From positions 1,095 to 65,094 of the forward strand of contig NZ_KB911823.1 in NCBI RefSeq assembly GCF_000383675.1: a stretch of DNA of 64,000 nucleotides, given 5' to 3'. Of this stretch, positions 1,100-64,000 are shown piece by piece. The DNA comes from Terracoccus sp. 273MFTsu3.1 (GTDB lineage Bacteria > Actinomycetota > Actinomycetes > Actinomycetales > Dermatophilaceae). Each line of letters opens with the position of its first letter. The first letter of the stretch is position 1. Below the pieces are notes generated by a model. It saw nothing but the letters and a program-made list of their open reading frames with translations, searched no databases and had not been told where the DNA came from. The position numbers and the translations under genes are program-made.

Positions 1100-2161
1100 A
1101 TGGACACGGAGACATCGACGCAACCGCTCATCGCCGGCTACGACGGGGTGGTGTGTGACCTCGACGGTGTCGTCTACCGCGGACCGGATGCCGTCCCGGG
1201 TGCCCCGAAAGCGCTGCAGGACATCGTGGCTCGGGGCGTGCGGGTCGTCTACGCGACGAACAACGCGTCCCGCGTCCCGACCGAGGTGGCCACCCAGATC
1301 GCCGACCTCGGTGCGCCCGCGACGGCATCCGACGTCGTGTCGAGCGCGCAGGCAGGGGCCGCCCGGCTCGCCGCCGACCTCCCACCCGGAGCTGCCGTCC
1401 TCGCACTGGGTGGCGAGGGCGTCGTCGAGGCGCTGCGGGACGCAGGCCTCGTGCCCGTGGCCGCCGCCCGTCACCAGCCCGGTCCCGGAGCCGACGAGGT
1501 GGCGGCCGTGCTCCAGGGCTTCGGCAAGGAGCTGCGCGTGCGCGACTTCGAGAGGGCGGCCCGTCTCCTCTCCTCCGGTCTTCCGTGGGTCGCCACGAAC
1601 GACGACGCGACGCTGCCGCTGCCGTGGGGGCAGTCCCCGGGGAACGGCGCCTACATCGAGCTGCTCGTCGCCGTGGTCGGGCGACGCCCGGACGTCGTCG
1701 GGAAGCCGCACCCGCCGCTCTACCGGCTCGCCCTCGACCGCCTCGGCACCGTCGCTGCCAGGACGCTCGCGGTCGGCGACCGGATCGGCACCGACATCGT
1801 CGGCGCCGAGGCCACCGGCCTCGACTCGGCCTGGGTCCTCACCGGCGTCGACCGGCCCTCCGACCTCGTGGCGAGCGAGTCGTCGCCCACCTACGTCGTC
1901 GTCTCCCTCGCCGACCTCCTGACGCCGTATGCCGCCCCGGTGGCCGACGCCGGTGGCTGGCGCTGCGGCGCCGCCCGGGTGGAGCTCGACGCCGACCATC
2001 TCGTCGTCGAGCACGGGAGCGCAGACCCCGTCGAGGTCGTGCGAGCGGGCCTGGCGGCCCTGCTGGCGTCGCGCGACGAGGGAGCGCCTTCCGAGCACCT
2101 GCGTCGGGCGGCGGCGACGCTCGACCGCCTGTTCGACGACTCACCGACCCCGACCCGGTAG
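1100..2161 (+). CDS. HAD-IIA family phosphatase (glycerol-3-phosphate phosphatase type)
   Basis: 353 residues. The HAD nucleophile motif DLDGVVYRG has its two Asp at residues 20 and 22; motif II ATNNAS is near 52, and the acidic motif IV is in VGDRIGTDIVGA near 225. A C-terminal extension of about 80 residues follows the core. Length and position match M. tuberculosis Rv1692, shown to be a D,L-glycerol-3-phosphate phosphatase that recycles polar heads from lipid catabolism. Product by homology: soluble Mg2+-dependent phosphatase; substrate is inferred. The stop codon is TAG, rare in this window, and forms the first half of a putative -10 hexamer for the next gene. Confidence 0.85.
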   Translation: MDTETSTQPLIAGYDGVVCDLDGVVYRGPDAVPGAPKALQDIVARGVRVVYATNNASRVPTEVATQIADLGAPATASDVVSSAQAGAARLAADLPPGAAVLALGGEGVVEALRDAGLVPVAAARHQPGPGADEVAAVLQGFGKELRVRDFERAARLLSSGLPWVATNDDATLPLPWGQSPGNGAYIELLVAVVGRRPDVVGKPHPPLYRLALDRLGTVAARTLAVGDRIGTDIVGAEATGLDSAWVLTGVDRPSDLVASESSPTYVVVSLADLLTPYAAPVADAGGWRCGAARVELDADHLVVEHGSADPVEVVRAGLAALLASRDEGAPSEHLRRAAATLDRLFDDSPTPTR

Positions 2162-2196
2162 CGTGACCGCAGCGGACCAACCACTCGGCACGGAGG
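2159..2196 (+). promoter_or_regulatory. -10 hexamer overlapping HAD stop codon, plus RBS
   Basis: TAGCGT at 2159-2164 begins with the TAG stop codon of the HAD gene. A transcript from here would have a ~32-base leader carrying GGAGG (2192-2196) six bases before the ATG at 2203. Confidence 0.45.
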
Positions 2197-2202
2197 CAGC
2201 AC

Positions 2203-2682
2203 ATGTTCGGCGACAGCGACCCCCGACGCGACGATCTCGGGTCCGGCGAACCGCTCGAGGTCGCCGAGGAGCTCGACCCGATGGACTCGGACACCGGCGC
2301 GAGCGACGACGCCGTCGACGAGTGGGACGACTCCGACGACCAGTCCGACGACGTCAGCGATGCGGACGTCTCGGGCGACGACCTCGAGGACGTCGCCGAC
2401 GAGGACGTCGCCTACGAGGACGATGACGTCAGCAACGACGCGGACGACGCGGACGACGACCACCGGACCGACGACGACCCCGCGACGGCCGAGGTGCCCT
2501 ACGCTCCGCTGGACGCGACGCCGGACGTGCCCACCCCACCCCTGACGGGTGACCAGGCGGTCGACGAGGCGATGATGCGTCTCGCCGAGTCACAGGCCGG
2601 GTCGTTCGCCGAGCGCATCGAGTCGGGCGAGCACGCCCACCGCAGCCTGCAGAGCCGCCTCGGCGGTCTGGGTGGCGCGTGA
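2203..2682 (+). CDS. Acidic hypothetical protein
   Basis: 159 residues. Residues 1-100 are strongly acidic, with dense Asp/Glu clusters, probably disordered. The last ~45 residues are different and look folded: a helix with DEAMMRLAESQAG and SGEHAHRSLQSRLG. Position matches the tiny M. tuberculosis Rv1693, between the phosphatase and tlyA; the short conserved C-terminus is likely the functional part. No enzymatic motif is present. The stop overlaps the GTG of tlyA by four bases, so the two are translationally coupled. Function unknown; a partner or regulator of TlyA is one possibility, purely from context. Confidence 0.75.
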   Translation: MFGDSDPRRDDLGSGEPLEVAEELDPMDSDTGASDDAVDEWDDSDDQSDDVSDADVSGDDLEDVADEDVAYEDDDVSNDADDADDDHRTDDDPATAEVPYAPLDATPDVPTPPLTGDQAVDEAMMRLAESQAGSFAERIESGEHAHRSLQSRLGGLGGA

Positions 2683-3479
2683 CGCGTCGTCTCGACGTCG
2701 AGCTCGTCGCCCGAGGCCTGGCCCGATCGCGCACCCAGGCCCGTGAGCTCGTCACCGCCGGCGTGGTGCTCGTCGACGGTCGCCCGGCCGGCAAGCCCGC
2801 CCTGCCCGTCGACGACTCGTCGGCCATCGAGCTGACCCGCGAGCCCGACCGCTGGGTGGGGCGCGCGGCCGTCAAGCTGCTCCACGCCCTCGACACGTGG
2901 CCGGTCCCCGTCGACGGCAGGCGGTGCCTGGACGTCGGGGCGAGCACGGGTGGCTTCACCCAGGTGCTCCTCGAGCGCGGTGCCACCCACGTGACGGCCC
3001 TCGACGTCGGCCACGGCCAGCTCGTCGCGTCGATCGGTGCCGACCCGCGCGTCCGGGACCTTCCGGGCACCAACATCCGTGACGTCGACGCCGACGCGCT
3101 CGGCGGCCCCTTCGACCTCGTCGTGTCCGACCTCAGCTTCATCTCGCTCGCCATCGCCCTGCCCGCGATGCGACCTCTCGTCACCGACGACGGCGACGTC
3201 GTCGTCCTGGTCAAGCCGCAGTTCGAGGTGGGGCGCGAGCGGCTCAGCCGTACAGGAGTCGTCACCTCGCCGCACGAGCGCCGCCGGGTGCTGCGCGACG
3301 TGGCCCAGGTCGCGGCCGACCTCCACCTGCACCTCCACGGTGCGACGGCCAGCCCCATCGCAGGGGGCGACGGCAACCGGGAGTTCCTCTTCTGGCTCGC
3401 CCCGAGACCCGTCCCGGGCGCCTCGGTGACGGCGGTGGATGACATGCTGGAGGCCGTCGACCTCGAAGGAGTCCCGTGA
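2679..3479 (+). CDS. tlyA: TlyA family rRNA 2'-O-methyltransferase
   Basis: 266 residues. An S4 RNA-binding domain occupies about residues 1-60 (RLDVELVARGLARSRTQARE). An FtsJ/RrmJ-type methyltransferase domain follows, with the SAM-binding motif LDVGASTGGFTQVLLERGA near 87. In mycobacteria TlyA methylates cytidine 2'-O in 16S and 23S rRNA and is needed for capreomycin sensitivity; the older name haemolysin is misleading. The GTG start overlaps the upstream stop (GTGA), and its own stop overlaps the nadK start the same way. The gene order tlyA-nadK-recN is conserved across actinobacteria. Confidence 0.93.
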   Translation: MTRRLDVELVARGLARSRTQARELVTAGVVLVDGRPAGKPALPVDDSSAIELTREPDRWVGRAAVKLLHALDTWPVPVDGRRCLDVGASTGGFTQVLLERGATHVTALDVGHGQLVASIGADPRVRDLPGTNIRDVDADALGGPFDLVVSDLSFISLAIALPAMRPLVTDDGDVVVLVKPQFEVGRERLSRTGVVTSPHERRRVLRDVAQVAADLHLHLHGATASPIAGGDGNREFLFWLAPRPVPGASVTAVDDMLEAVDLEGVP

Positions 3480-4423
3480 CGCGTCGCATCCTGCTCGTGG
3501 CCCACCCGAGGCGCCCCGAAGCGCTGACGGTCGCCAAGGGCGTCGTGCAACGCCTGACCCACCTCGGCATCGACGTGTCCCTCCAGGCCGACGAGGCCGA
3601 GGCCCTCGACCTCAAGGACAGCTCGCGCGTGCACATCGCGTCCGCCGAGGAGCAGGTCGCGGAGGGGTGCGACCTCGTCGTGGTGCTCGGCGGCGACGGG
3701 ACCATCCTGCGCGGAGCCGAGTTCGCCCGCAGCGTCGACGTGCCGCTCCTCGGGGTCAACCTCGGCCACGTGGGCTTCCTCGCGGAGGCCGAGCGCGACG
3801 ACCTCGACGCCACGGTCGAGCACATCGCGAGCAACGACTACGCCGTCGAGGAGCGCATGACGCTCCACGTCGACGCGAAGCTGCACGGCGACCTCATCGC
3901 GAGCAGCTGGGCCCTCAACGAGGTCAGCGTCGAGAAGGCCGCCCGCGAGCGGATGCTCGAGGTCACCGTCGAGGTCGACGGTCGCCCGCTGTCGAGCTGG
4001 GGCTGCGACGGCGTCATCGTCTCCACGCCGACGGGCTCGACGGCATACGCCTTCTCTGCTGGTGGTCCGGTCGTCTGGCCGCAGGTCGAGGCCATGCTCC
4101 TCGTGCCCAGCGCGGCCCACGCGCTCTTCGCCCGGCCGCTCGTGCTGGGCCCCGACACCCACCTGGCCGTCGAGATCAAGGCGGCCACCGAGGGCGCGGG
4201 AGTCATGTGGTGCGACGGCCGGCGCCACGTCGACCTCCCCCCGGGCGCCCGCATCGAGGTCCGCCGGGGGCTGCGCCCGCTCCGCCTCGCCCGGCTGACG
4301 AGCGCACCGTTCACGGACCGCCTCGTCGCGAAGTTCGACCTCTCGGTCGCCGGGTGGCGCGGCAACGGCGACACCGCCTCGCCCGTGGACGACGTCGACG
4401 GCGGTGAGGGTGGCCGGCCCTAA
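3476..4423 (+). CDS. nadK: NAD kinase
   Basis: 315 residues. Phosphorylates NAD to NADP with ATP or polyphosphate. Family motifs are clear: GGDGTILRGAEFA near residue 72 (catalytic Asp), LNEVSVEK with the NE dyad near 145, and the nucleotide-binding STPTGSTAYAFSAGGP near 182. Start GTG overlaps tlyA by four bases. The stop is TAA, one of only two in the window, and TAAGGT forms a candidate -10 for recN. The C-terminal ~20 residues are Asp/Gly-rich and probably disordered. Confidence 0.95.
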   Translation: MTRRILLVAHPRRPEALTVAKGVVQRLTHLGIDVSLQADEAEALDLKDSSRVHIASAEEQVAEGCDLVVVLGGDGTILRGAEFARSVDVPLLGVNLGHVGFLAEAERDDLDATVEHIASNDYAVEERMTLHVDAKLHGDLIASSWALNEVSVEKAARERMLEVTVEVDGRPLSSWGCDGVIVSTPTGSTAYAFSAGGPVVWPQVEAMLLVPSAAHALFARPLVLGPDTHLAVEIKAATEGAGVMWCDGRRHVDLPPGARIEVRRGLRPLRLARLTSAPFTDRLVAKFDLSVAGWRGNGDTASPVDDVDGGEGGRP

Positions 4424-4432: not shown

Positions 4433-6226
4433 GTGTTCAGCCAGATGAGGATCCGGGGTGTCGGTGTCATCGACGACGCCGTCCTCGACCTGAGCCCCGG
4501 GCTCAACGTGCTCACCGGTGAGACCGGCGCCGGCAAGACCATGGTCGTGTCGGGGCTCGGCCTGCTGCTCGGCGAGCGCGCCGACTCCGGCCTCGTGCGC
4601 ACCGGCTCGGCCTCGGCGCTCGTCGAGGGCGTCGTCCAGCTGCCCCTCGACCACCCGGCCCTCGTCCGGGCCGACGAGGCGGGTGCCGACCACGAGGACG
4701 GCGAGCTCGTCATCGCCCGCACCATCGCCGCGGCCGGCCGGTCGCGCGCCCACGTCGGCGGTCGCACGGCGCCCGTGTCCGTGCTCGCCGAGCTCGGACA
4801 GATGCTTGTGGCCGTGCACGGTCAGGCCGACCAGTGGCGGCTCAAACAGGGCGATGCCCACCGGGTCGTCCTCGACGACTTCGGGGGTGCCGACCTCACG
4901 GCGCTCCGCGACCGCGTCGGCGAGCTCTACGACCGCTGGCGTGCGTCGGCCCGCGAGCACGCGCGCCTCGTCTCGGAGGCGCGCGAGCGCGCCCGCGAGA
5001 TCGACTCGCTGACCGCCTCGCTCGAGGAGATCGAGGCCGTCGACCCCCAGCCGGGCGAGGATGCGGCCCTGCGTGCCGAGGACGAGCGCCTCGCGCACGC
5101 CGACACGCTCCGCCTCGCCGCAGCCCAGGCGCTCGCCGATCTCAGCGGCGACGAGTATGCCGCCGAGCCGGCTCCGAACGTCCGTGACCTCATCGGGTCG
5201 GCGCGGGCTGCGCTCGGCCCGGCCACGGCGCACGACCAGGCCCTCGCCGGCCTCGACGAGCGCCTGCACGAGGTCGGCACACTGGTGACGGACCTGTCGG
5301 CCGACCTCACGGCATACCTCCAGGACGTCGACCTCGACCCGGAGCGGCTCGGCTACGTGCAGGAGCGGCGGGCCGCGCTCGGAGTCCTCACGCGCAAGTA
5401 CGGCGAGACCGTCGACGAGGTGCTCGAGTGGTCGGGCCGCGGTGCGGCACGCCTCGACGAGCTCGTCACCGCCGACGACCGCGTCGAGCGACTCGGCGCC
5501 GAGGTGGCCGAGCTCGAGGCGTCCGTCGTCGCGGCCGCGCTGTCGCTGTCCGAGGCTCGCCGCGCCGCCGGTGACGACTTCGGCACCCGCGTCTCGGAGG
5601 AGCTCTCACACCTGGCGATGGGCAAGGCCGTCGTCCACGTCGAGCTGCGCCGACGCACCGACCCCGAGGGTGTGGCCCTGCCCGACGGCGACCGGGTGCG
5701 GCTGGCCCGACACGGCATCGACGAGGTCGAGATCCTGCTCGCGGCCAACCCGGGAGCCACGCCGCGCAGCGTCGCCCGCGCCGCCTCGGGCGGTGAGCTC
5801 TCCCGCGTCATGCTCGCCCTCGAGGTGGTCGGCTCGCGGAGCGCCTCGGGCGAGGCGGCGAGCGGACCACCGACGTTCGTCTTCGACGAGGTCGACGCCG
5901 GCGTCGGCGGTCGGGCGGCCCTCGACGTCGGTGCCCGACTGGCTGCCCTCGCCGAGCACGCCCAGGTCATCGTCGTCACCCACCTCGCCCAGGTGGCCGC
6001 GTTCGCCGACCGCCACCTCGTCGTGCACAAGGCCGACGACGGCCGCATCACCTCGAGCAGCGTCACCGTCGTCGACGGTGACGCCCGGCTGCGGGAGCTG
6101 TCGCGGATGATGGGCGGCGATCCCGACTCCGAGGCTGGACTGGCCCATGCCGGAGACCTCCTCGAGCAGACGAGCGGTGCCAGGGTGGGCACGCGTCCGA
6201 CCGCCCGCAGCGGCACACGCGCCTGA
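4433..6226 (+). CDS. recN: DNA repair protein RecN
   Basis: 597 residues, an SMC-like ATPase for double-strand break repair. Walker A GETGAGKT at 29-36; long central coiled coil, roughly 150-350, rich in Arg/Glu/Ala; ABC signature ASGGELSRVMLALEV near 445; Walker B FVFDEVDAGVGGRAA near 480. The GTG at 4433 gives the family-typical N-terminus (five residues before RIRG). In this gene order recN directly follows nadK. The C-terminus has a short Thr/Arg-rich tail. Confidence 0.95.
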   Translation: MFSQMRIRGVGVIDDAVLDLSPGLNVLTGETGAGKTMVVSGLGLLLGERADSGLVRTGSASALVEGVVQLPLDHPALVRADEAGADHEDGELVIARTIAAAGRSRAHVGGRTAPVSVLAELGQMLVAVHGQADQWRLKQGDAHRVVLDDFGGADLTALRDRVGELYDRWRASAREHARLVSEARERAREIDSLTASLEEIEAVDPQPGEDAALRAEDERLAHADTLRLAAAQALADLSGDEYAAEPAPNVRDLIGSARAALGPATAHDQALAGLDERLHEVGTLVTDLSADLTAYLQDVDLDPERLGYVQERRAALGVLTRKYGETVDEVLEWSGRGAARLDELVTADDRVERLGAEVAELEASVVAAALSLSEARRAAGDDFGTRVSEELSHLAMGKAVVHVELRRRTDPEGVALPDGDRVRLARHGIDEVEILLAANPGATPRSVARAASGGELSRVMLALEVVGSRSASGEAASGPPTFVFDEVDAGVGGRAALDVGARLAALAEHAQVIVVTHLAQVAAFADRHLVVHKADDGRITSSSVTVVDGDARLRELSRMMGGDPDSEAGLAHAGDLLEQTSGARVGTRPTARSGTRA

Positions 6227-9364: not shown

Positions 9365-11205
9365 CCGACCGGACCGCAGGCGGCGGACCCGCACGGCGTG
9401 GGCTGTTCGCCGCCGCAGGCACCATCGCGGTGATCACTCTCGTCGCCCGGGTGGTCGGCTTCGGACGATGGTTCGTCTTCTCCCACTCCGTCGGGGCGAC
9501 CTGCGTCGGGAGCGTCTACCAGTCGGTCAACGCGGTCCCCAACGTGCTCTTCGAGATCGCGGCAGGGGGAGTGCTCGCGGCGGTCGCCGTGCCTCTCGTG
9601 GCAGGTGCTCTGGCCCGCGGCGACCGGGTCGAGGCCGACCACACGGCCTCCGCGCTGCTGACGTGGGTGGTCGTCGTGCTCGTGCCGCTGGGCGTGGTCG
9701 TGGCCCTCGCCGCGGAGCCGATCGCGCGGGGCCTGCTCGGAGCCGGTGACACCTGTCCCGGCGCGGTGGGTCTCGGGGCCGACCTGCTGCGGGTCTTCGC
9801 GATCCAGATCCCGCTCTACGGCGTCGGCATCGTGCTCGGCGGCGTGCTCCAGTCGCACCACCGCTTCGTCGCTGCGGCGATCGCCCCGCTCATGTCCAGC
9901 CTCGTCGTCATCGCAACCTACGTGACCTACGCGGCCGTCGCCGGCGACCCGGCCGCCCCGATCGCACAGGTCCCGGCGGGGGCGACCACGGTGCTCGCCG
10001 TCGGCACGACCCTCGGGGTCGTCGCGCTGTCGCTGCCGCTCCTCGTCCCGGTTCGTCGCGCCGGGGTCCATCTCACGCTGACGACGCGCTTCCCGCACGG
10101 CGTCGCCGCCCGCGTCCGACGGCTCGCCGTGGCCGGCCTCCTCGCCGTCGCCGGCCAGCAGCTGGCGACGCTCGTCTTCATCCGCCTCGCCAACGACCGC
10201 GGCGGACCCGGGACGCTCAACGTGTACACCTACGTGCAGGCCGTCTCCCTGCTCCCGTATGCCGTCCTCGCCGTCCCGCTCGCCACCGCCGCCTTCCCGA
10301 CGTTGGCGGGGAGCGCGCAAGCGGGCAGGCCGGAGCCTGAGGCGGGCGCAGCGGCGCCGACCTTGGCGCCGGGGTCCGCGGCTGTGGACGTGCTGCGGCG
10401 GACGTGGTTGGCCACCCTCCTGGCCGGTCTGCTGGCCGGCGGCCTGCTCGTGGCCGTCGCCCGACCGGTCGGCGCCTTCTTCGCCCTGCTCGACGCCGGG
10501 CGCGCGGACGGCAACGGGGCCGTGGCCCTGTCCGCCATCCCCGACGCCCTCGTGCTCGTGGCCCCGGGCATCGTCGGCCTGTGCGCGATCGGGCTGCTGA
10601 CGAGAGCGTCGTACGTGCGAGGTCGTGCCCGGGTCGCAGGCGCCGTGGTCGCCGTCGCGTGGCTCGCCACGACCATCGTCCCGCTCGTGGCGCTCGAGGG
10701 CTCGTCCGGACCCGCGACGACCGTACGGGCTCTCGCCCTCGGCACCAGCATCGGGCTCGTGGCCGGGGCCGTCGCGCTTGCGGTCCTCGTCGCGCGGAGC
10801 TGGGGACGCCCGGCCCTGGCGGTCCCCGCACGCCCCGTCGCAGCCGGGCTGCTGGGCGCCGCGGCCGCCGCGCTCCTCGGCTGGTGGCTCGGCGGCCTCT
10901 GGACCGCGGACGGACTCCTCGTCGCCGCTGCGCAGGGCGTCGCCGTGGCGCTCGCGGCCACCGTGACCCTCGTCGTCGTAGTGCTCGTCGTCGACCGCTC
11001 GGTCGTCGCCCGGCTGCGGCGCCGGCCACCGACCGCGGCGAACGCGCCCGCTGGTGCGCCGTCCTCCACGACTGCTCCGACGTCCACCGCAGCTTCGACG
11101 TCCACCACCGCTTCGACGTCCACGACTGCTCGGTCGTCAGCGCCGATGTCCGCCCCTGCGGGCGAGCAGGATCCGCACCCTGCCGGGCCCCCGGAGACGC
11201 GATGA
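9361..11205 (+). CDS. murJ: MurJ/MviN family lipid flippase
   Basis: 614 residues from the ATG at 9361, which overlaps the MraY-like gene (ATGA). About 14 membrane segments; the N-terminus has the MOP-superfamily pattern ITLVARVVGFGRWFVF and PNVLFEIAAGGVLAAV. Family members move lipid II or other polyprenyl-linked precursors across the membrane. The last ~60 residues after the final helix are Ala/Ser/Thr-rich with repeated TSTTAS units, a disordered cytoplasmic tail. Actinobacteria often have a second MurJ near the chromosome end (with a kinase-like tail); this one lacks that domain and may be dedicated to this cluster. Assignment to peptidoglycan is unproven. Confidence 0.8.
   Translation: MTDRTAGGGPARRGLFAAAGTIAVITLVARVVGFGRWFVFSHSVGATCVGSVYQSVNAVPNVLFEIAAGGVLAAVAVPLVAGALARGDRVEADHTASALLTWVVVVLVPLGVVVALAAEPIARGLLGAGDTCPGAVGLGADLLRVFAIQIPLYGVGIVLGGVLQSHHRFVAAAIAPLMSSLVVIATYVTYAAVAGDPAAPIAQVPAGATTVLAVGTTLGVVALSLPLLVPVRRAGVHLTLTTRFPHGVAARVRRLAVAGLLAVAGQQLATLVFIRLANDRGGPGTLNVYTYVQAVSLLPYAVLAVPLATAAFPTLAGSAQAGRPEPEAGAAAPTLAPGSAAVDVLRRTWLATLLAGLLAGGLLVAVARPVGAFFALLDAGRADGNGAVALSAIPDALVLVAPGIVGLCAIGLLTRASYVRGRARVAGAVVAVAWLATTIVPLVALEGSSGPATTVRALALGTSIGLVAGAVALAVLVARSWGRPALAVPARPVAAGLLGAAAAALLGWWLGGLWTADGLLVAAAQGVAVALAATVTLVVVVLVVDRSVVARLRRRPPTAANAPAGAPSSTTAPTSTAASTSTTASTSTTARSSAPMSAPAGEQDPHPAGPPETR
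11072..11125 (+). repeat. Tandem ~18-bp repeats in murJ tail
   Basis: Three imperfect units with the core TTCGACGTCCACCACCGC encode the Thr/Ser/Ala-rich C-terminal tail of the MurJ-like protein. Confidence 0.6.
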
Positions 11206-12344
11206 GGGTCCTCATGGTGCTCGGACACGCGGCCGGTGGGGTGGGTGCGCACGTCGACGCCCTCGTGAGGGGAGTGCGCGAGCAGGGGCACGACGTCCAG
11301 GTCGTGACGGCGGAGTCGACGGCGCGAGCCTTCGACTGGGCCGACGCGCACCGGCTCTGGCCGGTCCACGGCGGGCTGCGCGCGCCGCGAGGTCTCGTGG
11401 ACTGGCACCGCATCATGCGCCTCGCTGGCACGGTCGACGTCGTCCACGCGCACGGCCACCAGGCCGCCGTCGTCTGTGCGGTGGCCGTCGCCCGGGCGCG
11501 GCCACGCCCGCGCCTCGTGGTCTCGCTCCACAACGACCTCCCGCCGGTCCCTGGCTCGGCCCCTGCCCGGGCCGTGGCGTCCGCCGCCCGGCGGCTGGTC
11601 GCGTGGTCCCTGCACCGGGCCGACCTCGTGACGGGTGCGAGCGGCGACCTCGTGGAGCTCGCCGACGCGTTGGGTGCCCGACGCACCGAGCTCGCCCTCG
11701 TGCCCTCCGCCGCGGTCGCCGACCTCCTGCGGCGTCCCGGCCTCGAGCCGGCCGACCGCTCCGCCCTGCTGGCCGGAGCCGGCCTGCCGACCGGCGGCCC
11801 CGTCGTGCTCACGGTCTCGCGCATCGCGCCCCAGAAGGACCTGCCGACCCTTCTCGAAGCCGCGCGACGCTCCCAAGCGACCGCCACGTGGGTCGTCGTC
11901 GGCGACGGCGACGAGCGACTCCGTGCCCGTCTCGTGGAGGAGGCGGACGGCATACGGCTGGGGCAGGAGCCGGGGGCCAAGGTCCGGTTCGTGGGGGCGC
12001 GTACCGATGTGTCCGAGTGGCTCCGAGCGGCGGACGTGTTCGTCCTCACGAGCCGCTGGGAGGCCCGGGCGCTCGTCGTGCAGGAGGCCATGGCGGCCGG
12101 GCTGCCGGTCGTCGTGACCCGTACCGGCGGTCTGCCCGACCTGGTCGGCGACGCGGGTTCTTTTGTCCCCGTGGGTGACCCGGCCGCCGTGGCAGCCGAG
12201 GTGGACCGCCTGCTCGCCGACGCCGAGGCCAGGCTCCGGGAGGGCGCGTCCGGACGGGCCCGGGCCGCCGGTTGGCCCACTCCTGACGACGAGACGCGCC
12301 GGTGGATGGAACGCTACGTCACGCAGACCCGCGGAGTGACGTAG
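11202..12344 (+). CDS. GT4 family glycosyltransferase
   Basis: 380 residues from the ATG at 11202, coupled to murJ (ATGA overlap). GT-B fold: N-domain [17 protein letters not shown] with the glycine-rich acceptor loop; C-domain [19 protein letters not shown] near 205 and the EX7E motif in [17 protein letters not shown] near 290. No signal peptide or membrane helix, so it acts at the inner face of the membrane. With the MraY-like and MurJ-like genes it forms an initiation/elongation/flipping set for a lipid-linked glycan. Donor and acceptor cannot be read from sequence. Its TAG stop is part of a putative -10 for pyrG. Confidence 0.82.
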
Positions 12345-12355: not shown

Positions 12356-14128
<1,773 letters not shown>

Positions 14129-14813: not shown

Positions 14814-15235
14814 GCGCGGCGTTCGGCCCGGGCGTCTCCGGGTCGTGCCCTTGTGGGGGCGGCCCGGACGAGCTGGCGTATGCCGTGTGCTGCGGCCCGC
14901 TCCATGCGGGCGAACGGCCGGCCGGGACCGCCGGCGAGCTGATGCGCTCGCGCTACACGGCGTTCGCCGTGGGGGACGAGGCATACCTCCTGCGCACCTG
15001 GCACCCTCGGACGCGGCCCGAGCGGGTGGGGCTCGACCCGGACACGCGCTGGACGGGCCTGACGGTGGTGCGGACGGAGCGCGGCGGTCCCGGCGACGAC
15101 GACGGTGTCGTCGAGTTCGTGGCGCGGTGGACGGAGCCGTCAGCGGGCGCCGTGCGTCGGGGCGAGCTGCGCGAGGTGAGCCGGTTCGCCCGCCGGGGCG
15201 GCCGCTGGCTCTACGTCGACGGCGAGCACGGGTGA
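14810..15235 (+). CDS. YchJ-like SEC-C motif protein (UPF0225 family)
   Basis: 141 residues from GTG 14810. The N-terminus has the SEC-C-like zinc ligands CPCGGG and AYAVCCGPLH, then LMRSRYTAFAVGDEAYLLRTWHP, typical of the YchJ/UPF0225 family, and an NTF2-like C-terminal half. Function is not established; the metal is probably zinc. The final 96 bases overlap the 3' end of the converging EamA gene, so one of the two stops may be extended beyond the ancestral end. Translation is coupled to the NUDIX gene. Confidence 0.82.
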   Translation: MSAAFGPGVSGSCPCGGGPDELAYAVCCGPLHAGERPAGTAGELMRSRYTAFAVGDEAYLLRTWHPRTRPERVGLDPDTRWTGLTVVRTERGGPGDDDGVVEFVARWTEPSAGAVRRGELREVSRFARRGGRWLYVDGEHG

Positions 15236-16214: not shown

Positions 16215-17138
16215 ATGATTGATCCCGTCGCGTTGCGGTCCCTCGTCGCCGTCGAGGCGCACGGGTCCGTCGGCGCCGCAGCAGCCGCCCTCGACTACAC
16301 CCCGAGCGCGGTGTCCCAGCAGATCAAGCGCCTCGAGACCCAGACGGGGGTGCAGCTGCTCGAACGGCAGGGGCGGGGCGTCCTGCTCACCGAGGCCGGT
16401 CGCACGGTCTCCGACGCGGCGCGGTCCCTGCTCGCGGACATGGAGCGACTCGAGTCCAGGCTGCACGGAGACAGCGGGGAGACGGTCGGGACCGTGCGCC
16501 TCGCGACGTTCGCCACGGCGTACCGAGGGGTCGTCGTGGGCGCCATCGCCCGCCTGCGCTCGACCGCGCCGGACGTCGTCCTGCGTCCCGACGAGATCGA
16601 CCCCTGGGATGCCGTGGACGCCGTCGCGGCCGGCACCCACGACCTCGCCCTCGTGCACAACTGGGAGCCGCTGCCGCTCGCCATCCCCGACCACCTCGAG
16701 GTGCGCGACCTCGGCCGGGACCGGGCGGACGTCCTCGTCCACGAGAGCCACCCGCTCGCCAGGCGACGGAGCATCGGCGTGCGGGACGTGCTCGAGGAGC
16801 ACTGGGCCAGCGTCGCGCCCGGCTCCATCTGCCACCAGTGGCTCCAGAAGATGTATGCCGATGTCGGGCGGTCCCCCCGGATCGCGCACGTCGCGCTCGA
16901 GTTCGCCACGCACGTCGCTCTCGTCGCGGCGGGGGAGGCCATCGCCCTCGTGCCCCGCCTCGGCCGGGGGCCGCTGCCCGAGGGCGTCGTCGCGGTCCCG
17001 ATCGTCGACCCGGTCTCCGAGCGCACCGTGAGCGTCGTCTGGCGAAGCACCATGACGGCAAGCCCTGCGCTGGCCGCGGCCGTGGACTGCCTTGCGGCAG
17101 AAGCCTCCCGGGACCTTCGACCCCTTTCGGAGGAGTGA
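16215..17138 (+). CDS. LysR family transcriptional regulator
   Basis: 307 residues. N-terminal winged HTH: ALRSLVAVEAHGSVGAAAAA then YTPSAVSQQIKRLETQTG, with the substrate-binding effector domain from about residue 90. Divergent from the EamA transporter, which it probably controls in response to a small metabolite that the transporter exports. The effector is not predictable from sequence. Confidence 0.88.
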   Translation: MIDPVALRSLVAVEAHGSVGAAAAALDYTPSAVSQQIKRLETQTGVQLLERQGRGVLLTEAGRTVSDAARSLLADMERLESRLHGDSGETVGTVRLATFATAYRGVVVGAIARLRSTAPDVVLRPDEIDPWDAVDAVAAGTHDLALVHNWEPLPLAIPDHLEVRDLGRDRADVLVHESHPLARRRSIGVRDVLEEHWASVAPGSICHQWLQKMYADVGRSPRIAHVALEFATHVALVAAGEAIALVPRLGRGPLPEGVVAVPIVDPVSERTVSVVWRSTMTASPALAAAVDCLAAEASRDLRPLSEE

Positions 17139-18012: not shown

Positions 18013-19545
18013 ATGACGACGACCACGACGCCGACCCGCACCTACCCGTCGCTTCGGGCGGCGTGGATCCCGATGCTCGCGCTCTGTCTCGCCTTCTTCG
18101 TCGAGATGGTCGACAACACCCTCCTGACGATCGCGCTGCCGACGATCGGCCGTGACCTCGGGAGCGGCACCACCGCGCTCCAGTGGGTCACCGGTGCCTA
18201 CTCGCTGACGTTCGGGGGACTGCTGCTCACCGCCGGCTCGGCGGCGGACCGGCTCGGCCGACGACGGGTCCTCCTCTGGGGCCTCGCGGGATTCGGGGTC
18301 ATCAGCCTCGCCGTCGCTGCCGTGACGACGACCGGTGAGCTCATCGCCCTGCGCGCCGCGCTCGGGGTCGCGGCCGCGGCCATGGCCCCGATCACCAACT
18401 CCCTGGTCTTCCGGCTCTTCGACGACCAGGCCCTGCGGATGCGGGCGATGACCGTCATGATCGTCGTCGGCATGTCGGGCTTCGTCCTCGGTCCGCTGCT
18501 CGGTGGCACGGCGCTCGACCACGTCGGCTGGGAGTGGCTCCTCCTCGTCAACGCCCCCATCGCCCTCGTGGCCTGGGTCGGCGTCCGGCTCGGGGTGCCG
18601 GCTGACCGGCGCGAGGACCTCACTGCCGACCGGCTGGACCTGCCCGGTGCCCTGCTGAGCATCGCGGCCATCGGGCTCGGCTGCTACGCCCTGACCAGTG
18701 GCGTCGAGCACGGGTGGACCTCGGCGACCACCCTCGCGGCCGTCGTCGGCTCCGCGCTCGCGCTCGTCGCGTTCGTCCGCCACGAGCGGCGTGCGGCCTC
18801 GCCGATGCTCGACCTGTCGCTCTTCTCGTCGCGGACCGTGCGCGGGGCCGCGCTGGCGCAGGCGGGGACCTCGATCGCGATGGCCGGGGTGATGTTCGGG
18901 CTCATCCTGCACTTCCAGTACGCGTGGGGCTGGAGCCCCGTTCGTGCCGGTCTCGCCAACCTCCCGCTCATCGTGACGATGGTCCTCGCGACACCGCTCT
19001 CGGAGTGGCTCGTCCGCCGCTTCGGCCACCGGGTCGCGTGCCTCGTCGGCGTGGGCCTGCTCGTCGTCGCGCTCCTCGGGATGGCATGGGGTGTCGACCG
19101 CGGCTACCCGGCCATCGCCGTCGCCATGGTCGTCCTGACCGTCGGCCTCCGCACCGTCATGACGATCTGTGCGGTGGCCCTCGTCGAGGCGATGCCCGCC
19201 AACCGCACCTCGATCGGCACCGCGCTCAACGACACGGCCCAGGAAATCGGCACGAGCGTCGGCACCGCCGTCGTGGGCACCCTCGTCGCCGTGCTCGTGA
19301 CGACCACCCTCCCCGCCGGCACGTGGGGTCCCGACCTCGTCTCGTCGTTCTTCCACGGTGAGCGGGTGACGTATGCCGTGCTCGCCGTCCTTGTGGGTGT
19401 CGTGGCCACGTGGGGTGCGCTGACGCTCACCGACTCCCGCAGCGTCGACGAGCACGAGGTCGAACTGGACGGCGAGCCGGACCCCGCGGCCGACCGCGAC
19501 GCTGCCGCCGTGCCGGCGGGCGCGGGGGTTCGCCCCTCCGCGTAG
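18013..19545 (+). CDS. DHA2 family (14-TM) MFS drug exporter
   Basis: 510 residues, 14 predicted helices. MFS motif A in GSAADRLGRRRVLL near residue 75; drug/H+ antiporter motif C-like GFVLGPLLGGTALDH near 157; acidic Glu/Asp in helix 1 (FFVEMVDNTLLTIALPTIG), as in the EmrB/QacA group. Start ATG 18013 has RBS GGAAGGAG seven bases upstream. Exports toxic hydrophobic compounds by proton antiport; the substrate is unknown. Regulated by the divergent TetR through three operators. TAG stop. Confidence 0.9.
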   Translation: MTTTTTPTRTYPSLRAAWIPMLALCLAFFVEMVDNTLLTIALPTIGRDLGSGTTALQWVTGAYSLTFGGLLLTAGSAADRLGRRRVLLWGLAGFGVISLAVAAVTTTGELIALRAALGVAAAAMAPITNSLVFRLFDDQALRMRAMTVMIVVGMSGFVLGPLLGGTALDHVGWEWLLLVNAPIALVAWVGVRLGVPADRREDLTADRLDLPGALLSIAAIGLGCYALTSGVEHGWTSATTLAAVVGSALALVAFVRHERRAASPMLDLSLFSSRTVRGAALAQAGTSIAMAGVMFGLILHFQYAWGWSPVRAGLANLPLIVTMVLATPLSEWLVRRFGHRVACLVGVGLLVVALLGMAWGVDRGYPAIAVAMVVLTVGLRTVMTICAVALVEAMPANRTSIGTALNDTAQEIGTSVGTAVVGTLVAVLVTTTLPAGTWGPDLVSSFFHGERVTYAVLAVLVGVVATWGALTLTDSRSVDEHEVELDGEPDPAADRDAAAVPAGAGVRPSA

Positions 19546-22657: not shown

Positions 22658-22690
22658 GCCACGAGGCGGGGCCTTCCGCCGCCGACCGTG

Positions 22691-22731
22691 AACGTATGCC
22701 GCCCACCCGAGCCGGGCGGGCGGCATACGTT
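22691..22731 (+). terminator. Long hairpin terminator after aspS
   Basis: Perfect 14-base arms AACGTATGCCGCCC (22691-22704) and GGGCGGCATACGTT (22718-22731), with an inner CCCG/CGGG stem. Each arm contains one copy of the overrepresented octamer GTATGCCG/CGGCATAC, so the terminator is built from the two copies in inverted orientation. Confidence 0.8.
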
Positions 22732-22803
22732 CTCGTCGGCCGGGGTCACCGACGCCGTCGCGCACGACCGACGGCGCGTGAACCGCTCCGTCGGCCGCTC
22801 CGG

Positions 22804-23289: not shown

Positions 23290-23724
23290 ATGATCACCAA
23301 CATCTCCATCGTCAGTGTCTTCGTGAAGGACATCGACGAGTCCAAGCGCTTCTACGTCGACGTCCTCGGGTTCGAGGAGAAGGACGACATCACCCTCGGC
23401 GACGGCTACCGCTGGTGCACGGTCGTGCACCCGAGCCAGCCGGAGCTGCAGGTCAGCCTCGCCATCCCCGGTCCGCCCTTCCCGGACGAGCTCGTCACCG
23501 CGATGAAGCGGGCGCAGGACGCCGGCGGGCTCAACGGTCTCGGTCTCACCGTCGACGACTGCGAGCAGACGTATGCCGACCTGTCGGCCAGGGGCGTCGA
23601 GTTCCTCCAGCCCCCGTCGGCCCGTCCGTACGGCACCGAGGCCGTCTGCCGCGACAACTCGGGCAACTGGGTCGTGCTCGTGGAGCTGTCGGACCGGGCC
23701 GTCACCGCGGCCGACTTCGCCTGA
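23290..23724 (+). CDS. VOC superfamily protein (glyoxalase/bleomycin-resistance fold)
   Basis: 144 residues. Two beta-alpha-beta-beta-beta modules: NISIVSVFVKDIDESKRFYVDVLGFEEKDD opens the first and GLGLTVDDCEQTYADLSARGVEF the second; the end DNSGNWVVLVEL is typical. Such proteins are metal-dependent lyases/dioxygenases or antibiotic-binding proteins; the exact role is not clear. Paired with the short AraC regulator. Confidence 0.85.
   Translation: MITNISIVSVFVKDIDESKRFYVDVLGFEEKDDITLGDGYRWCTVVHPSQPELQVSLAIPGPPFPDELVTAMKRAQDAGGLNGLGLTVDDCEQTYADLSARGVEFLQPPSARPYGTEAVCRDNSGNWVVLVELSDRAVTAADFA

Positions 23725-33440: not shown

Positions 33441-33444
<4 letters not shown>
32374..33444 (+). CDS. 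Peptide ABC transporter ATPase (DppD/OppD type)
   Basis: 356 residues from GTG 32374. Walker A GESGSGKS at 59-66, signature FSGGMRQRAMIALGL, Walker B LLIADEPTTALDVT, and the C-terminal oligopeptide-family extension with Cys residues (GCSFHPRCEF) that in relatives bind an Fe-S cluster. Energises import with the DppF-type partner. Coupled to both neighbours by four-base overlaps. Confidence 0.93.
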
Positions 33445-34569: not shown

Positions 34570-34617
34570 AGCGGCATACCCGGGCAAAGGTGGTGGGACG
34601 AGTCTCACGCGGTCCGT

Positions 34618-42685: not shown

Positions 42686-43809
42686 GCGCTGCGGCCGAGC
42701 CGACGACGATCCCCGTCGGCGACGACTACGACGTCGTCATCGGGTCCGGCGTGCTCGACCGCGTCGGTGACCTGCTCGGCGACGACGTCGAGCGCGTCCT
42801 CGTCGTCCACCCCCCGACGCTGACGGAGCTGGCCTCGAAGGTCACCGCTGCCCTCGAGCGGCAGGGGTATGCCGTCCACGTCGCCGAGGTGCCCGACGCA
42901 GAGGCCGCCAAGACGGCCGAGGTCGCGGCGGGGCTCTGGGCCCAGCTGGGCCGGGCAGGCTTCACCCGCACCGACGCCGTCGTGGGAGTCGGGGGCGGCA
43001 CGGTCACCGACCTCGCCGGCTTCGTCGCCGCGTCCTGGCTGCGCGGGGTGCGCGTCGTCCAGGTGCCGACGACCCTGCTCGGGATGGTCGACGCGGCCGT
43101 CGGGGGCAAGACCGGCATCAACACCGCCGAGGGCAAGAACCTCGTCGGTGCCTTCCACCCTCCGGCCGGGGTGCTCTGCGACGTCGACGTCCTCTCGACC
43201 CTGCCCGAGGCCGACCTCGTCGCCGGGCTGGCCGAGGTCGTCAAGTGCGGCTTCATCGCCGACCCCGTCATCCTCGACCTCGTCGAGGCGTCCGTGCGGG
43301 ACGACGCCGGCCGGGCCCGCACCGCCGCCAACCCGCACCTGCGCGAGCTCATCGAGCGCGCCGTCCGGGTCAAGGCCGAGGTCGTCGCCGCGGACCTGCG
43401 CGAGAGCTCGCTGCGCGAGATCCTCAACTACGGCCACACGTTCGGCCACGCCATCGAGCAGGTCGAGCACTACTCGTGGCGGCACGGAGAGGCGGTCGGC
43501 GTCGGGATGGTCTACGTCGCCGAGCTCGCCCGGCTCACCGGTCACCTGACCGGTCCCGACGGCGACGCGCTCGTCGCTCGGCACCGCTCGGTCCTCGAGT
43601 CGCTCGGGCTCCCGACGACGTACGCCGGCGGGCGCTGGGACGAGCTGCTCACCGCGATGCGGCGGGACAAGAAGTCCCGCGGCTCGACGCTGCGCTTCGT
43701 CGTGCTCGACGGCCTGGCCGAACCCACCCGGCTCGCCGGCCCGGACGACACGCTGCTCCAGGCGGCGTACGGCCTCGTGTCGCGGCGCCCCGACGCGAGG
43801 GCTCACTAG
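42682..43809 (+). CDS. aroB: 3-dehydroquinate synthase
   Basis: 375 residues from GTG 42682. NAD and zinc-dependent. [21 protein letters not shown] near 95 binds [23 protein letters not shown] near 130; zinc ligands in [13 protein letters not shown] (His) near 250 and HGEAVGVGM near 266. Its TAG stop starts the -10 candidate of aroQ. Confidence 0.95.
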
Positions 43810-43819: not shown

Positions 43820-44257
43820 ATGACGGCACCCACGGTCTTCGTCCTGTCGGGCCCCAACCTGGGCAGACTCGGCACCCGCGAGCCCGAGGTCTACGGCTCC
43901 GACACGCTCGACGACGTGCACGCCGCGGTGCAGCGCGAGGCGCGCGAGCTCGGCCTCGTCGCCGACTGCCGCCAGACCAACCACGAGGGCGAGCTCATCG
44001 ACTGGCTCCACGAGGCCGTCGACGTCGGCGCCGACGTCGTGCTCAACCCGGGGGCCTTCACCCACTACTCGTATGCCGTCCGCGACGCCTGCGCCATCGT
44101 GACGACGAGTGGTCGGAGCCTCGTCGAGGTGCACCTCAGCAACCCGGCGGCGCGCGAGGAGTTCCGGCACACGTCCGTCGTGGCGGGGGTCGCGACCGGC
44201 ACCGTCGCCGGCTTCGGGCTGCAGTCCTACCTGCTCGCCCTGCGCGCCCTCGTCTGA
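43820..44257 (+). CDS. aroQ: Type II 3-dehydroquinate dehydratase
   Basis: 145 residues, normal family length. The active-site loop LGTREPEVYG carries the Arg and the catalytic Tyr; QTNHEGELIDWL, NPGAFTHYSYAVRD (His base) and EVHLSNPAAREEFRHTS are all present. Dehydrates dehydroquinate to dehydroshikimate. Last gene of the aroC-K-B-Q run. Confidence 0.95.
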   Translation: MTAPTVFVLSGPNLGRLGTREPEVYGSDTLDDVHAAVQREARELGLVADCRQTNHEGELIDWLHEAVDVGADVVLNPGAFTHYSYAVRDACAIVTTSGRSLVEVHLSNPAAREEFRHTSVVAGVATGTVAGFGLQSYLLALRALV

Positions 44258-48347: not shown

Positions 48348-48620
48348 GCCGGTACCTTCCTTCAGCGAAAACACACCGAGGAGGTGTCGACGCACCGGGA
48401 TCGGATGCCGGTGGGTCGTGACCTGCTCGGTGCGTTGCGGGCGGGGGGAACGGGTCAGCGTACACCGGCGAGGACGGCGACGGGTGTGCGCGATTCCGCG
48501 ATCCGGCGGCGGCCCGGCTAGACTCGTGCGGCAACTCCCCAAGACAGTGAACGCCCGGCTATCCGGCGTGCCCATGGGCGCGCGCCCCGACCGGCCGGCA
48601 TACGAAAGTGGTTTGTGACG
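48348..48620. promoter_or_regulatory. Divergent control region of helicase gene and efp
   Basis: 273 bases. Minus-strand -10 candidate TACGCT (48462-48457) for the helicase and plus-strand TAGACT (48519-48524) for efp, each with a ~90-100-base leader. An inverted repeat CGCACCG/CGGTGCG lies in the helicase leader. One octamer copy (CGGCATAC) lies at 48596-48603 in the efp leader. I do not see a long palindrome of the rifamycin-associated type. Confidence 0.5.
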
Positions 48621-53955: not shown

Positions 53956-55162
53956 CCACCCAGACCCCCCTGACCGTGCCCACCCGAGACGGGTGGCCGA
54001 CCCGCACCCGCGTGGCGGCGACCCTCGTTCTCGAGGACGGCCGCACCTTCCACGGGTCGTCCTACGGTGCTCTGGGCGAGACCGTCGGCGAGGCGGTCTT
54101 CTCGACCGGCATGACGGGCTACCAGGAGACGCTCACCGACCCGAGCTACCACCGGCAGGTCATCGTCATGACCTCGCCGCACGTCGGCAACACGGGCGTC
54201 AACACCGAGGACGACGAGAGCAGCCGCATCTGGGTCGCCGGCTACGTCGTGCGCGATCCCGCCATCCGGTCGTCGAGCTGGCGCGCCACGCGCGACCTCG
54301 AGGACGAGCTCGTCGACCAGGGCGTCGTCGGCATCTGCGACATCGACACGCGGGCCCTGACCCGCCACCTGCGCGAGCGCGGGGCGATGCGCGTCGGCAT
54401 CTTCAGCGGTGACGGCGCCGAGCGCTCCGAGGCCGAGCTGCTCGAGGCGGTCCGCACGAGCCCGCAGATGGCCGGCGCCGCGCTCGCCGCCGAGGTCACC
54501 ACCGCCGAGCCGTATGCCGTCCCGGCCGTCGGCGACAGGCGCTTCACCGTCGCGGCCGTCGACCTCGGCATCAAGGCGATGACCCCGGCGCTGATGGCGC
54601 AGCGCGGCATCGAGGTGCACGTCCTGCCGGCCACCGCGACGATCGACGACGTCCTGGCCGTGGGGGAGTCCGGACCCGACGGCGTCTTCTTCTCCAACGG
54701 TCCCGGTGACCCGGCCACCGCCGAGCGCGAGGTGGCGCTCCTGCGCGAGGTGCTCGACCGCGGCATCCCGTTCTTCGGCATCTGCTTCGGCAACCAGCTG
54801 CTCGGCCGCGCGCTGGGCTTCGGCACGTACAAGCTGAAGTACGGTCACCGCGGCATCAACCAGCCGGTGATGGACCGCACGACCGGCAAGGTCGAGGTGA
54901 CGGCCCACAACCACGGGTTCGCCGTGGACGCGCCCCTCGACGAGGACAGCGACACGGCATACGGCCGCGTCCGTGTCTCGCACGTGTGCCTCAACGACGA
55001 CGTCGTGGAGGGGCTCGAGTGCCTCGACCGTCCTGCCTACTCCGTCCAGTACCACCCCGAGGCTGCGGCGGGCCCGCACGACGCCGCCTACCTCTTCGAC
55101 CGCTTCCTCGAGCTCATGACCGACCGACAGACCACCCACCAGACCACGGAGGTCAACGCCTG

Positions 55163-55163
<1 letters not shown>
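53952..55163 (+). CDS. carA: Carbamoyl-phosphate synthase small subunit
   Basis: 403 residues from GTG 53952. N-domain [30 protein letters not shown]; class I amidotransferase with nucleophile Cys in [18 protein letters not shown] near 282, and His/Glu in [12 protein letters not shown] near 368. Supplies ammonia from glutamine to CarB. One-base overlap (TGATG) with carB. Confidence 0.96.
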
Positions 55164-58509
<3,346 letters not shown>

Positions 58510-58513
<4 letters not shown>

Positions 58514-61222: not shown

Positions 61223-61278
61223 CCCCGCGTGCACCCCGTCGCATCGTGCAGTCGCGGGACGTCGCCGACGACACGGCA

Positions 61279-61290
61279 TACGGTGTGGTG
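61279..61290 (+). promoter_or_regulatory. Candidate leaderless promoter for lipoprotein gene
   Basis: TACGGT at 61279-61284, six bases before ATG 61291. It shares bases with the octamer copy at 61274-61281. Confidence 0.45.
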
Positions 61291-62803: not shown

Positions 62804-62904
62804 GTCCCGACGTGATGTGTGCCAGCCGACGGCATACGACCGCATCGCCGTCGACGTCGCGGCGCGCACCTCAAGCCCGCTGAAACCAACGAAACGAGAT
62901 CACT

Positions 62905-63168
62905 GTGTCCGGTACCCAGGCTGCTCCCATCGGCATCACCAACCCGCCGATCGACGACCTCCTGACCGCCGCTGACTCGAAGTACGCGCTCGTCATCTAC
63001 TCCGCCAAGCGCGCCCGTCAGATCAACGCCTACTACTCCCAGCTGCAGGAGGGCCTGCTCGACTACGTCGGCCCGCTCGTCGAGACCGAGGTCCACGAGA
63101 AGCCGCTGTCGATCGCGCTGCGCGAGATCAACGAGGGCCTGCTGACCTCGACGCCCACCGAGGCCTGA
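62905..63168 (+). CDS. rpoZ: RNA polymerase omega subunit
   Basis: 87 residues from GTG 62905. [28 protein letters not shown] is the conserved core that holds beta-prime. A 101-base gap separates it from gmk, containing one octamer copy (62830-62837). Confidence 0.94.
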
Positions 63169-63194
63169 GCACCCCGACGGGTCCGGAGCAGCCG

Positions 63195-64000
63195 ATGCGC
63201 GTCGTCCTCGGGGTGAGTGGCGGCATCGCCGCCTACAAGGCGTGCTCGCTGCTCCGGCTCTTCACCGAGCACGGGCACGACGTCACGGTCGTGCCCACCG
63301 CGGCGGCGCTCCAGTTCGTCGGTGCGCCGACGTGGTCGGCTCTCTCGGGCAAGCCCGTCAGCACCGAGGTGTGGACGGCGGTGCACGAGGTCCCGCACGT
63401 TCGCATCGGCCAGTCGGCCGACCTCGTCGTCGTGGCGCCGGCGACCGCCGACCTGCTCGCCAAGGCCGCACACGGCCTGGCCGACGACCTGCTCACCAAC
63501 ACCCTGCTCACCGCCCGGTGCCCGGTCGCCTTCGCGCCGGCCATGCACACGGAGATGTGGGAGCACCCGGCCACGCAGGCCAACGTCGCGACGCTGCGCT
63601 CGCGCGGAGCGCACGTCATCGAGCCCGCGGTGGGTCGCCTGACGGGCAAGGATTCCGGCGCCGGCCGGCTCCCCGAGCCCGAGGCGTTGTATGCCGCCTG
63701 CCTCGCGATCGTCTCGGGTGACGGTGCCGCGGTGGCGGGGGCGCCGCTGCGCGACCTCGAGGGCCGCCGCGTCGTCGTGTCCGCCGGTGGCACGCGCGAG
63801 CCGCTCGACCCGGTGCGCTATCTCGGCAACCGCTCGTCCGGCAAGCAGGGCGTGGCCATCGCGCGCGCCGCCGCCGACCGCGGGGCGAAGGTCACCCTCG
63901 TGGCCGCCAACGTCTCGCTCCCGGTGCCCGACGGCATCGACGTCGTGCCGGTCGAGACGACGCTCGAGCTGCAGCGGGCGGTCGAGGAGGCGGCGTCGGA
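63195..64000 (+). CDS. coaBC: Phosphopantothenoylcysteine decarboxylase/synthetase (3' end outside window)
   Basis: ATG 63195; 268 codons are visible with no stop to the right edge. CoaC flavoprotein half: LGVSGGIAAYKACSLLRLF at the N-terminus, active-site PAMHTEMWEHPA near 116. CoaB half: VVSAGGTREPLDPVRYLGNRSSGKQG near 197. The usual PAMN is PAMH here, as in other actinobacterial enzymes. Makes 4'-phosphopantetheine for CoA. 26 bases after rpoZ. Confidence 0.93.
   Translation, partial: MRVVLGVSGGIAAYKACSLLRLFTEHGHDVTVVPTAAALQFVGAPTWSALSGKPVSTEVWTAVHEVPHVRIGQSADLVVVAPATADLLAKAAHGLADDLLTNTLLTARCPVAFAPAMHTEMWEHPATQANVATLRSRGAHVIEPAVGRLTGKDSGAGRLPEPEALYAACLAIVSGDGAAVAGAPLRDLEGRRVVVSAGGTREPLDPVRYLGNRSSGKQGVAIARAAADRGAKVTLVAANVSLPVPDGIDVVPVETTLELQRAVEEAAS

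Follow-up and report, generated by a model that had tools for sequence, protein, structure and literature searches.

An over-represented octamer as a candidate DNA-uptake signal in the family of Terrabacter

The octamer in the window and in its genome

The window analyzed here, 64,000 nucleotides (64 kb) of contig NZ_KB911823.1 of Terracoccus sp. 273MFTsu3.1, carries many copies of a short word, GTATGCCG, which is considered below as a candidate signal for the uptake of DNA. Its other-strand form is CGGCATAC, and both were counted as copies of GTATGCCG. The exact count in the window is 27, spanning 1927-63696, with 15 copies on the plus strand and 12 on the minus strand, which confirms the 27 full octamers of the original prediction. 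Upon dinucleotide shuffling of the window, the mean was 0.77 copies and the maximum 3 (100 shuffles). The GC content of 72.1%, from which independent bases give ∼2.1 octamers over the two strands, is in line with the earlier estimates of near 72% and about two. The earlier count of 28 cores was slightly low, as TATGCC occurs 29 times, including two cores outside the octamer at 740 and 14980. An Rfam search of the window gave no match.

Gene boundaries were taken from a simple GC-periodicity caller made for this analysis. With this caller, six of the 27 copies lie between genes, the same number of intergenic cores as first proposed. These are 14878..14885 and 22694..22701 on the plus strand and 22721..22728, 34572..34579, 48596..48603 (17 bases before gene 48621-49184), and 62830..62837 on the minus strand. 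The copies at 22694 and 22721 form the left and right halves of an inverted pair, giving a terminator-like hairpin at 22690..22732 with folding energies of −38.9 and −42.7 kcal/mol for the two strands. The hairpin begins 33 positions past the end (stop codon, 22657) of gene 20900-22657, presumably aspS. The remaining copies are within genes. On the plus strand, they occupy 1927..1934 (gene 1100-2161, sense, in the Tyr-Ala frame), 5155..5162 (gene 4433-6226, which we take to be recN), 10257..10264 (gene 9430-11205), 16853..16860 (gene 16215-17138), 19371..19378 (gene 18013-19545), 23571..23578 (gene 23290-23724), 31239..31246 (gene 29708-31276), 33111..33118 (gene 32374-33444), 42867..42874 (gene 42682-43809), 44071..44078 (gene 43820-44257), 54512..54519 (gene 53952-55163), 56670..56677 (gene 55163-58513, presumably carB), and 63689..63696 (gene 63195-63998). 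On the minus strand, they are found at 4041..4048 (gene 3476-4423, antisense), 5310..5317 (gene 4433-6226), 11948..11955 (gene 11202-12344), 27835..27842 (gene 26727-28127), 40431..40438 (gene 40109-40810), 42118..42125 (gene 40992-42161), 54955..54962 (gene 53952-55163), and 61274..61281 (gene 61246-61677).

By its alanyl-tRNA synthetase, the genome of the window groups with Terrabacter (97% to Terrabacter sp. Root181). The whole 4.94-Mb genome holds 2244 copies of GTATGCCG (1133 plus, 1111 minus), compared with 257 of the reversed control word (116 and 141). A sample of 464 kb, consisting of 400 kb of contig C1 and the window (which is on contig C4), contains 243 copies where an order-3 Markov model expects 11.8, and the word ranks first among all 8-mers. 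By z, it takes 17th place with an order-2 model and 7th place with an order-4 model, and the words above it, among those listed, are mostly AT-rich and occur 1 to 3 times. For the window alone, a maximal-order model did not single out GTATGCCG, because its sub-words are themselves enriched. Coding copies number 167, compared with a mean of 14 and a maximum of 21 after synonymous shuffling within genes (30 shuffles); codon bias does not explain the excess. The excess thus withstood the checks that had been proposed, the genome-wide and Markov counts and the codon shuffling. The suggestion that the motif imposes a rare tyrosine codon was also borne out, as Tyr is encoded by TAT in 166 of 2537 cases, and GTATGCCG contains 94 of these TAT codons.

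In the 464 kb, 243 of 266 TATGCC extend to the full GTATGCCG, and therefore the ends of the octamer count as much as its core. To describe the flanks, the 94 sense sites were compared with 35 sense-frame GTACGCCG sites, which encode the same Tyr-Ala residues. At position −3 of the sense sites, G is found in 66% (37% in the control), and at −1, which is mostly C, A is found in only 4% (46% in the control). At +8, A is scarcer in sense sites than in the control (6% versus 23%), and T is the favored base, at 62%, both in antisense (frame opp1) sites and between genes. GTATGCCG is thus an asymmetric, nonpalindromic word with a sharp 8-base core and preferred flanks. Of the one-mismatch words with at least 10 copies, GGATGCCG (92 versus 45) is the only one present at more than 1.5 times its order-2 expectation.

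The word is concentrated between genes, where 76 of the 243 copies are found in 17% of the sequence (binomial P 4e-8), a density of 0.97 per kb versus 0.43 in genes (2.2-fold). Copies on opposite strands within 40 bases of each other form 7 pairs versus 2.8 in simulations (P 0.021; the numbers are modest), 5 of them in plus-then-minus, or hairpin, order versus 1.4 (P 0.009), and all 7 are intergenic. Intergenic copies fold into slightly more stable structures than random intergenic DNA (−26.6 versus −24.3 kcal/mol, P 0.007). The largest stretch of the 400 kb free of GTATGCCG, C1:84608-96482 (11.9 kb), has a GC content of 0.619 versus 0.714 and is likely an acquired island; the next-largest gaps are not low in GC.

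Distribution and dialects across the family

The family of Terrabacter (f1) was surveyed in 163 genomes of 48 genera. Genomes were called rich with at least 300 copies of GTATGCCG and 2.3 times the reversed control, and poor with <125, a cut chosen after the counts had been seen; this gave 94 rich, 58 poor, and 8 intermediate genomes, and 3 more (235, 272, and 40 copies) were separated by hand as GGATGCCG dialects. The highest count is 4724 per 4.2 Mb. In a broader set of 58 relatives, GTATGCCG is abundant only in the family, the 22 genomes of other families holding 2 to 167 copies. Among named loci of 16-23 kb each, high densities of the word were seen in Terrabacter, Intrasporangium oryzae, Knoellia koreensis, Ornithinimicrobium tianjinense, Serinicoccus, Pedococcus, and Flexivirga and low ones in Ornithinimicrobium laminariae, Phycicoccus, Piscicoccus, Luteipulveratus, Arsenicicoccus, Janibacter massiliensis, and Marihabitans. 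In a 37-row alanyl-tRNA-synthetase tree, in which the family clade of 27 comprises 18 rich and 9 poor members by locus density of GTATGCCG, the label requires 7 changes, and at least 5 are forced by well-supported branches. Within genus g65, 27 genomes are rich and one, G137, has only 50 copies.

Dialects that differ by one base between lineages are present. GGATGCCG reaches 3816 and 3838 copies in g17, 3949 in g27, and 4480, 2195, and 2099 in g53 (six genomes of three genera), and the remaining genomes of the family have at most 1336. The two g53 genomes with ∼2100 copies of GGATGCCG also hold ∼1200 of GTATGCCG, and the third, with 4480, holds 361; it appears that a dialect change has been caught part-way in this genus. 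In G012, all four bases are over-represented at the sixth position, with C first (93, 40, 33, and 13 copies versus 2.1, 1.4, 2.1, and 1.4 expected), as if this lineage accepts the relaxed form GTATGNCG. The Flexivirga caeni locus has 8 copies each of GTATGCCG and GTATGACG in 16 kb. Counts of GGATGCCG are also raised in G009 and G172 (1336 and 1210), which were not counted as dialects, G009 because the word was third in one ranking (32 versus 12.9) and not in another. In G055, which belongs to another family (f19), GGATGCCG occurs 1548 times and the reversed word 184 times; GGATGCCG may be a signal there, outside the family.

An octamer unrelated to GTATGCCG, CGAAGGGG, was found in samples of three poor genomes. 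It exceeds synonymous shuffles more than any other word does in 20 kb of G123 (g64, L204), with 14 coding copies versus 1.0 and 5 intergenic ones, and in 23 kb of Marihabitans asiaticum (L075), with 18 versus 2.3 and 2 intergenic; in 40 kb of G091 (g60, L249 and L250), it leads together with the overlapping CCCCCTTC (13 versus 2.4, 6 intergenic). The two orientations number 11/8 in G123 and 11/9 in Marihabitans asiaticum. When 197 loci longer than 9 kb were ranked by density of CGAAGGGG, the top four were those of G123, Marihabitans, and G091 (0.40-0.95 per kb), and the next had 0.20. CGAAGGGG is probably another signal of the same kind, and in some of the 58 poor genomes, the word has probably been exchanged for another rather than lost; counts of GTATGCCG "loss" are therefore upper bounds. 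No other word stood out in 100 kb of G009, 80 kb of G014, 120 kb of G018, 91 kb of G137, 80 kb of G118, 40 kb of G010, or 20 kb of G120, nor in the poor loci L005, L007, L008, L014, L035, L049, L072, and L074 (20-23 kb each), of which L005 had no word that reached the count floor.

Competence genes, mobile elements, and turnover of sites

The genome of the window encodes ComEA (HHH_3 and SLBB), ComEC (Competence and metallo-beta-lactamase domains), and two tad clusters with TadA ATPases of the T2SSE family; T2SSE matches number five, and the two tad clusters were examined. NCBIfam cut-offs were passed only by TadA-2 (TIGR03819) and the N-terminal domain of ComEC (TIGR00360). A neighboring protein within tad-1 is TadE/G-like (PF13400), and two small tad-1 proteins without a family match are read, by position, as pilins. 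In Micrococcus luteus, also one of the Actinobacteria, transformation by the Flp/Tad pilus requires a comparable set, two tad clusters and comEA/EC (PMC4322843, in part), and the term "uptake sequence" is absent from the main text of that paper. Adjoining the tad-1 pilins, a protein of 502 residues with an Ala/Lys-rich, coiled-coil-like start was seen at L168:14862-16370; it matched nothing in the remaining tad loci of the comparison.

The machinery was compared between rich and poor genomes. A type IVa pilus was rejected as the shared machine, as PilM is present in 13 of 58 relatives and, among the 36 of the family, only in G033 and, with a partial match, in G028. The numbers of T2SSE matches gave no clear separation (G014 has a weak match only), and no separating gene emerged from the tad and com gene content compared. 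A match to TadA-1 (E 1e-60) is present in 150 of the 163 genomes of the family, and the 13 without one comprise 11 poor and 2 rich genomes (both g65), an association that, in statistics that ignore phylogeny, has a Fisher P of 4e-4. Under the same proviso, the six genera without a match are all poor (P 6.5e-4), and cuts of 200 to 600 copies of GTATGCCG give Fisher P values of 0.0005 to 0.002.

In several genomes, tadA-1 is associated with mobile elements. Elements that encode a large serine recombinase interrupt it in G005 (L220) and G001 (L223); in G006 (L222), where only the first part of the gene is covered, this part adjoins an element that also carries a large serine recombinase; and in G115 (L221), its parts are ∼14 kb apart with putative, transposase-like genes between them. 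Among the matches listed, those to TadA-1 break near residue 196 in G115, G159, G167, and G097 (g18, g67, and g60) and at 265-271 in G006, G001, and G029 (g1 and g22). The repeated break points suggest recurrent integration sites, although contig ends may account for some of the partial matches. Integration of elements into competence genes is known for comYC, comFA, comK, and comM (PMC4774983, in part). The four inserts, 37 kb in all, contain 4 copies of GTATGCCG. A density of 0.45 per kb would give 17 (P 2e-4), and the density in the flanks of these inserts would give 11 (P 0.014). Their GC content is 3 to 6 points below that of the flanks in three of the four and 2 points below in G006. Unrelated genes directly follow tadC in G118 (L244) and G034 (L253), where relatives have the tad-1 pilins, as if elements also enter there.

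Turnover of the sites was followed in pairwise, nonindependent comparisons in which only sites with all eight bases aligned were counted; this dropped no site from the window set and an uncounted number from the tad-1 set, and the comEC loci yielded no comparisons. Between the window and two Terrabacter loci, all 8, 11, and 11 sites have eight aligned bases in the others, and GTATGCCG is retained in 44 of 60 ordered comparisons, versus 44-53% for any 8-mer. In the pooled sets, retention is 52 of 80; any 8-mer is retained in 33%, and six control words one or two bases off are retained in 84 of 251. Of the 28 pooled noncarriers, 24 are one base off, and 14 are GTACGCCG or GTAGGCCG; these sites are thus gained and lost by point change.

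A candidate uptake signal and competing explanations

Among the options left by the original prediction, an uptake-like signal is the best supported because of the dialects, the density, the intergenic inverted pairs, the scarcity in inserts, and the association with competence-pilus genes. Judged from sequence, GTATGCCG is probably a signal of natural transformation in the family, similar to the DNA uptake sequence (DUS) of Neisseriaceae and the uptake signal sequence (USS) of Pasteurellaceae. All sequence-level features of DUS and USS that were examined are found in GTATGCCG. The competence apparatus would include a surface protein, probably one of the minor pilins of a Tad/Flp pilus, with a preference for DNA that bears GTATGCCG. 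Preferential uptake of DNA from kin, followed by recombination, would convert near-matches into GTATGCCG across the genome and continue until the word is dense on both strands wherever codons allow. Transformation would thus drive the accumulation, and the reader would be extracellular and a pilin. A shift in its specificity would change the dialect, from GTATGCCG to GGATGCCG, to the relaxed GTATGNCG, or to a different word such as CGAAGGGG, and upon loss of the uptake system, the word would decay.

The likeness to the Neisseriaceae DUS, which is read by the minor pilin ComP and exists in eight dialects, is close: both are short asymmetric words with thousands of copies, intergenic inverted pairs, and lineage dialects, two dialects may share one genome, and some genomes of the family have no obvious word (PMC3630211, in part). 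The differences are that GTATGCCG is found in Actinobacteria, has an 8-base core, and occurs without a common type IVa pilus. The Pasteurellaceae USS is likewise a genome-wide word with dialects (Hin and Apl), whose receptor is so far a recent prediction (PMC12616744, in part). In contrast to GTATGCCG, it relies on the type IV pilus machinery of Gram-negative bacteria. The USS word itself differs from GTATGCCG.

Several observations weigh against an uptake signal, in addition to the late choice of the rich/poor cut and the neglect of phylogeny in the TadA-1 statistics. To our knowledge, natural transformation has not been described in this family, and no sequence-specific receptor was identified among the tad and com genes compared. 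ComEC, tried as a discriminator between rich and poor, was rejected, since 57 of the 58 relatives have it, whether rich or poor. G141 and G146 of g65 are rich without a TadA-1 match, perhaps reflecting a recent loss after which the word has not yet decayed, and the poor G058 and G022 have no TadA-1 and keep a TadA-2 match. Both tad clusters are present in the poor G009, G091, G018, and G010, and tad-1 with part of tad-2 in the poor G137; tad genes are therefore not sufficient for richness in GTATGCCG. Of these genomes, G091 carries CGAAGGGG, and the others showed no word. Poor genomes with both clusters are expected if only the reader was changed or lost and are equally compatible with another reader altogether. 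Near tad-1, GTATGCCG is retained in 8 of 20 comparisons, lower than in the window (backgrounds were computed for the window and the pooled sets). In addition, words one base off are hardly enriched over order 2, GTACGCCG and GTAGGCCG are raised about two- to three-fold over the order-1 expectation, and antisense sites do not share the excess of G at −6 seen in sense and intergenic sites, an inconsistency across frames.

Other functions could be considered for a word with these properties. The cyanobacterial HIP1 is likewise an over-represented octamer with alternates and absences across a group of genomes (PMC4390886, in part), and an iterated word of this type, maintained by a DNA methyltransferase or a repair process, would explain why GTATGCCG occurs genome-wide on both strands and family-wide with variants and absences. 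The HIPs described in that source are palindromic and linked to methyltransferases, whereas GTATGCCG is asymmetric with preferred flanks, and we consider such an origin unlikely. A binding site for a nucleoid-associated or chromosome-organizing protein is a little less likely still. The slightly more even than random spacing of GTATGCCG (coefficient of variation 0.86), the lack of strand bias, and the intergenic excess would suit it, but it does not readily explain why there are as many as 4724 exact copies, also within genes at the cost of rare codons, and leaves both the scarcity in mobile inserts and the near-absence from one species of a rich genus (G137) unaccounted for.

A Chi-like hotspot of AdnAB/RecBCD-type nucleases could also be an asymmetric over-represented octamer, and changes of nuclease specificity could give rise to dialects. 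Chi sites are polar and skewed toward the leading strand, and KOPS (FtsK-orienting polar sequences) have a strong polarity from origin to terminus. The absence of strand bias noted in the original prediction extends beyond the window, with 110 and 106 copies on the two strands of the 400 kb and no trend along it. In the complete genome of a relative, G114, whose first gene is presumably dnaA, GTATGCCG was counted in eight and seven 20-kb stretches on the two arms (300 kb), giving 59/59 and 42/46, or 105 versus 101 in the sense of replication; the skew from origin to terminus that was to be checked is thus absent from these stretches. This lack of polarity speaks against KOPS and, together with the intergenic excess and the inverted pairs, makes a Chi-like role improbable. 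There is very little to be said for a mobile-repeat remnant, which the short inverted pairs resemble, or for a by-product of codon or dipeptide bias, given that the sites can be aligned in the Terrabacter loci with noncarriers mostly one base off, that only 8 bases and weak flank preferences are shared with no longer sequence, and that synonymous shuffles fall so far below the observed coding count.

A broader proposal can be built on the uptake signal, one that we would hold to be as easily wrong as right. The Actinobacteria of this family would use dialect-bearing uptake words that a Tad/Flp competence pilus recognizes. Self-recognition in transformation would then have arisen independently a third time, and for the first time in Gram-positive bacteria, with g53 in the middle of a change from GTATGCCG to GGATGCCG, other genera on CGAAGGGG, and mobile elements shutting the system off via tadA. 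We know of self-recognition uptake tags in only two, unrelated, bacterial families. A literature search that covered few subscription papers, judged by the titles and abstract openings listed, found neither GTATGCCG in print as a signal nor a report of such a word in Actinobacteria. If the proposal is true, a third case, in high-GC Gram-positive bacteria and with a different pilus, would mean that self-recognition evolves repeatedly, and competence would be predicted in many Actinobacteria. Pairs of dialects within one genus would offer a route to the reader through co-variation. The heptamer ATGCCGT is common to GTATGCCG and the uptake word of Neisseria, ATGCCGTCTGAA, which is taken as a coincidence.

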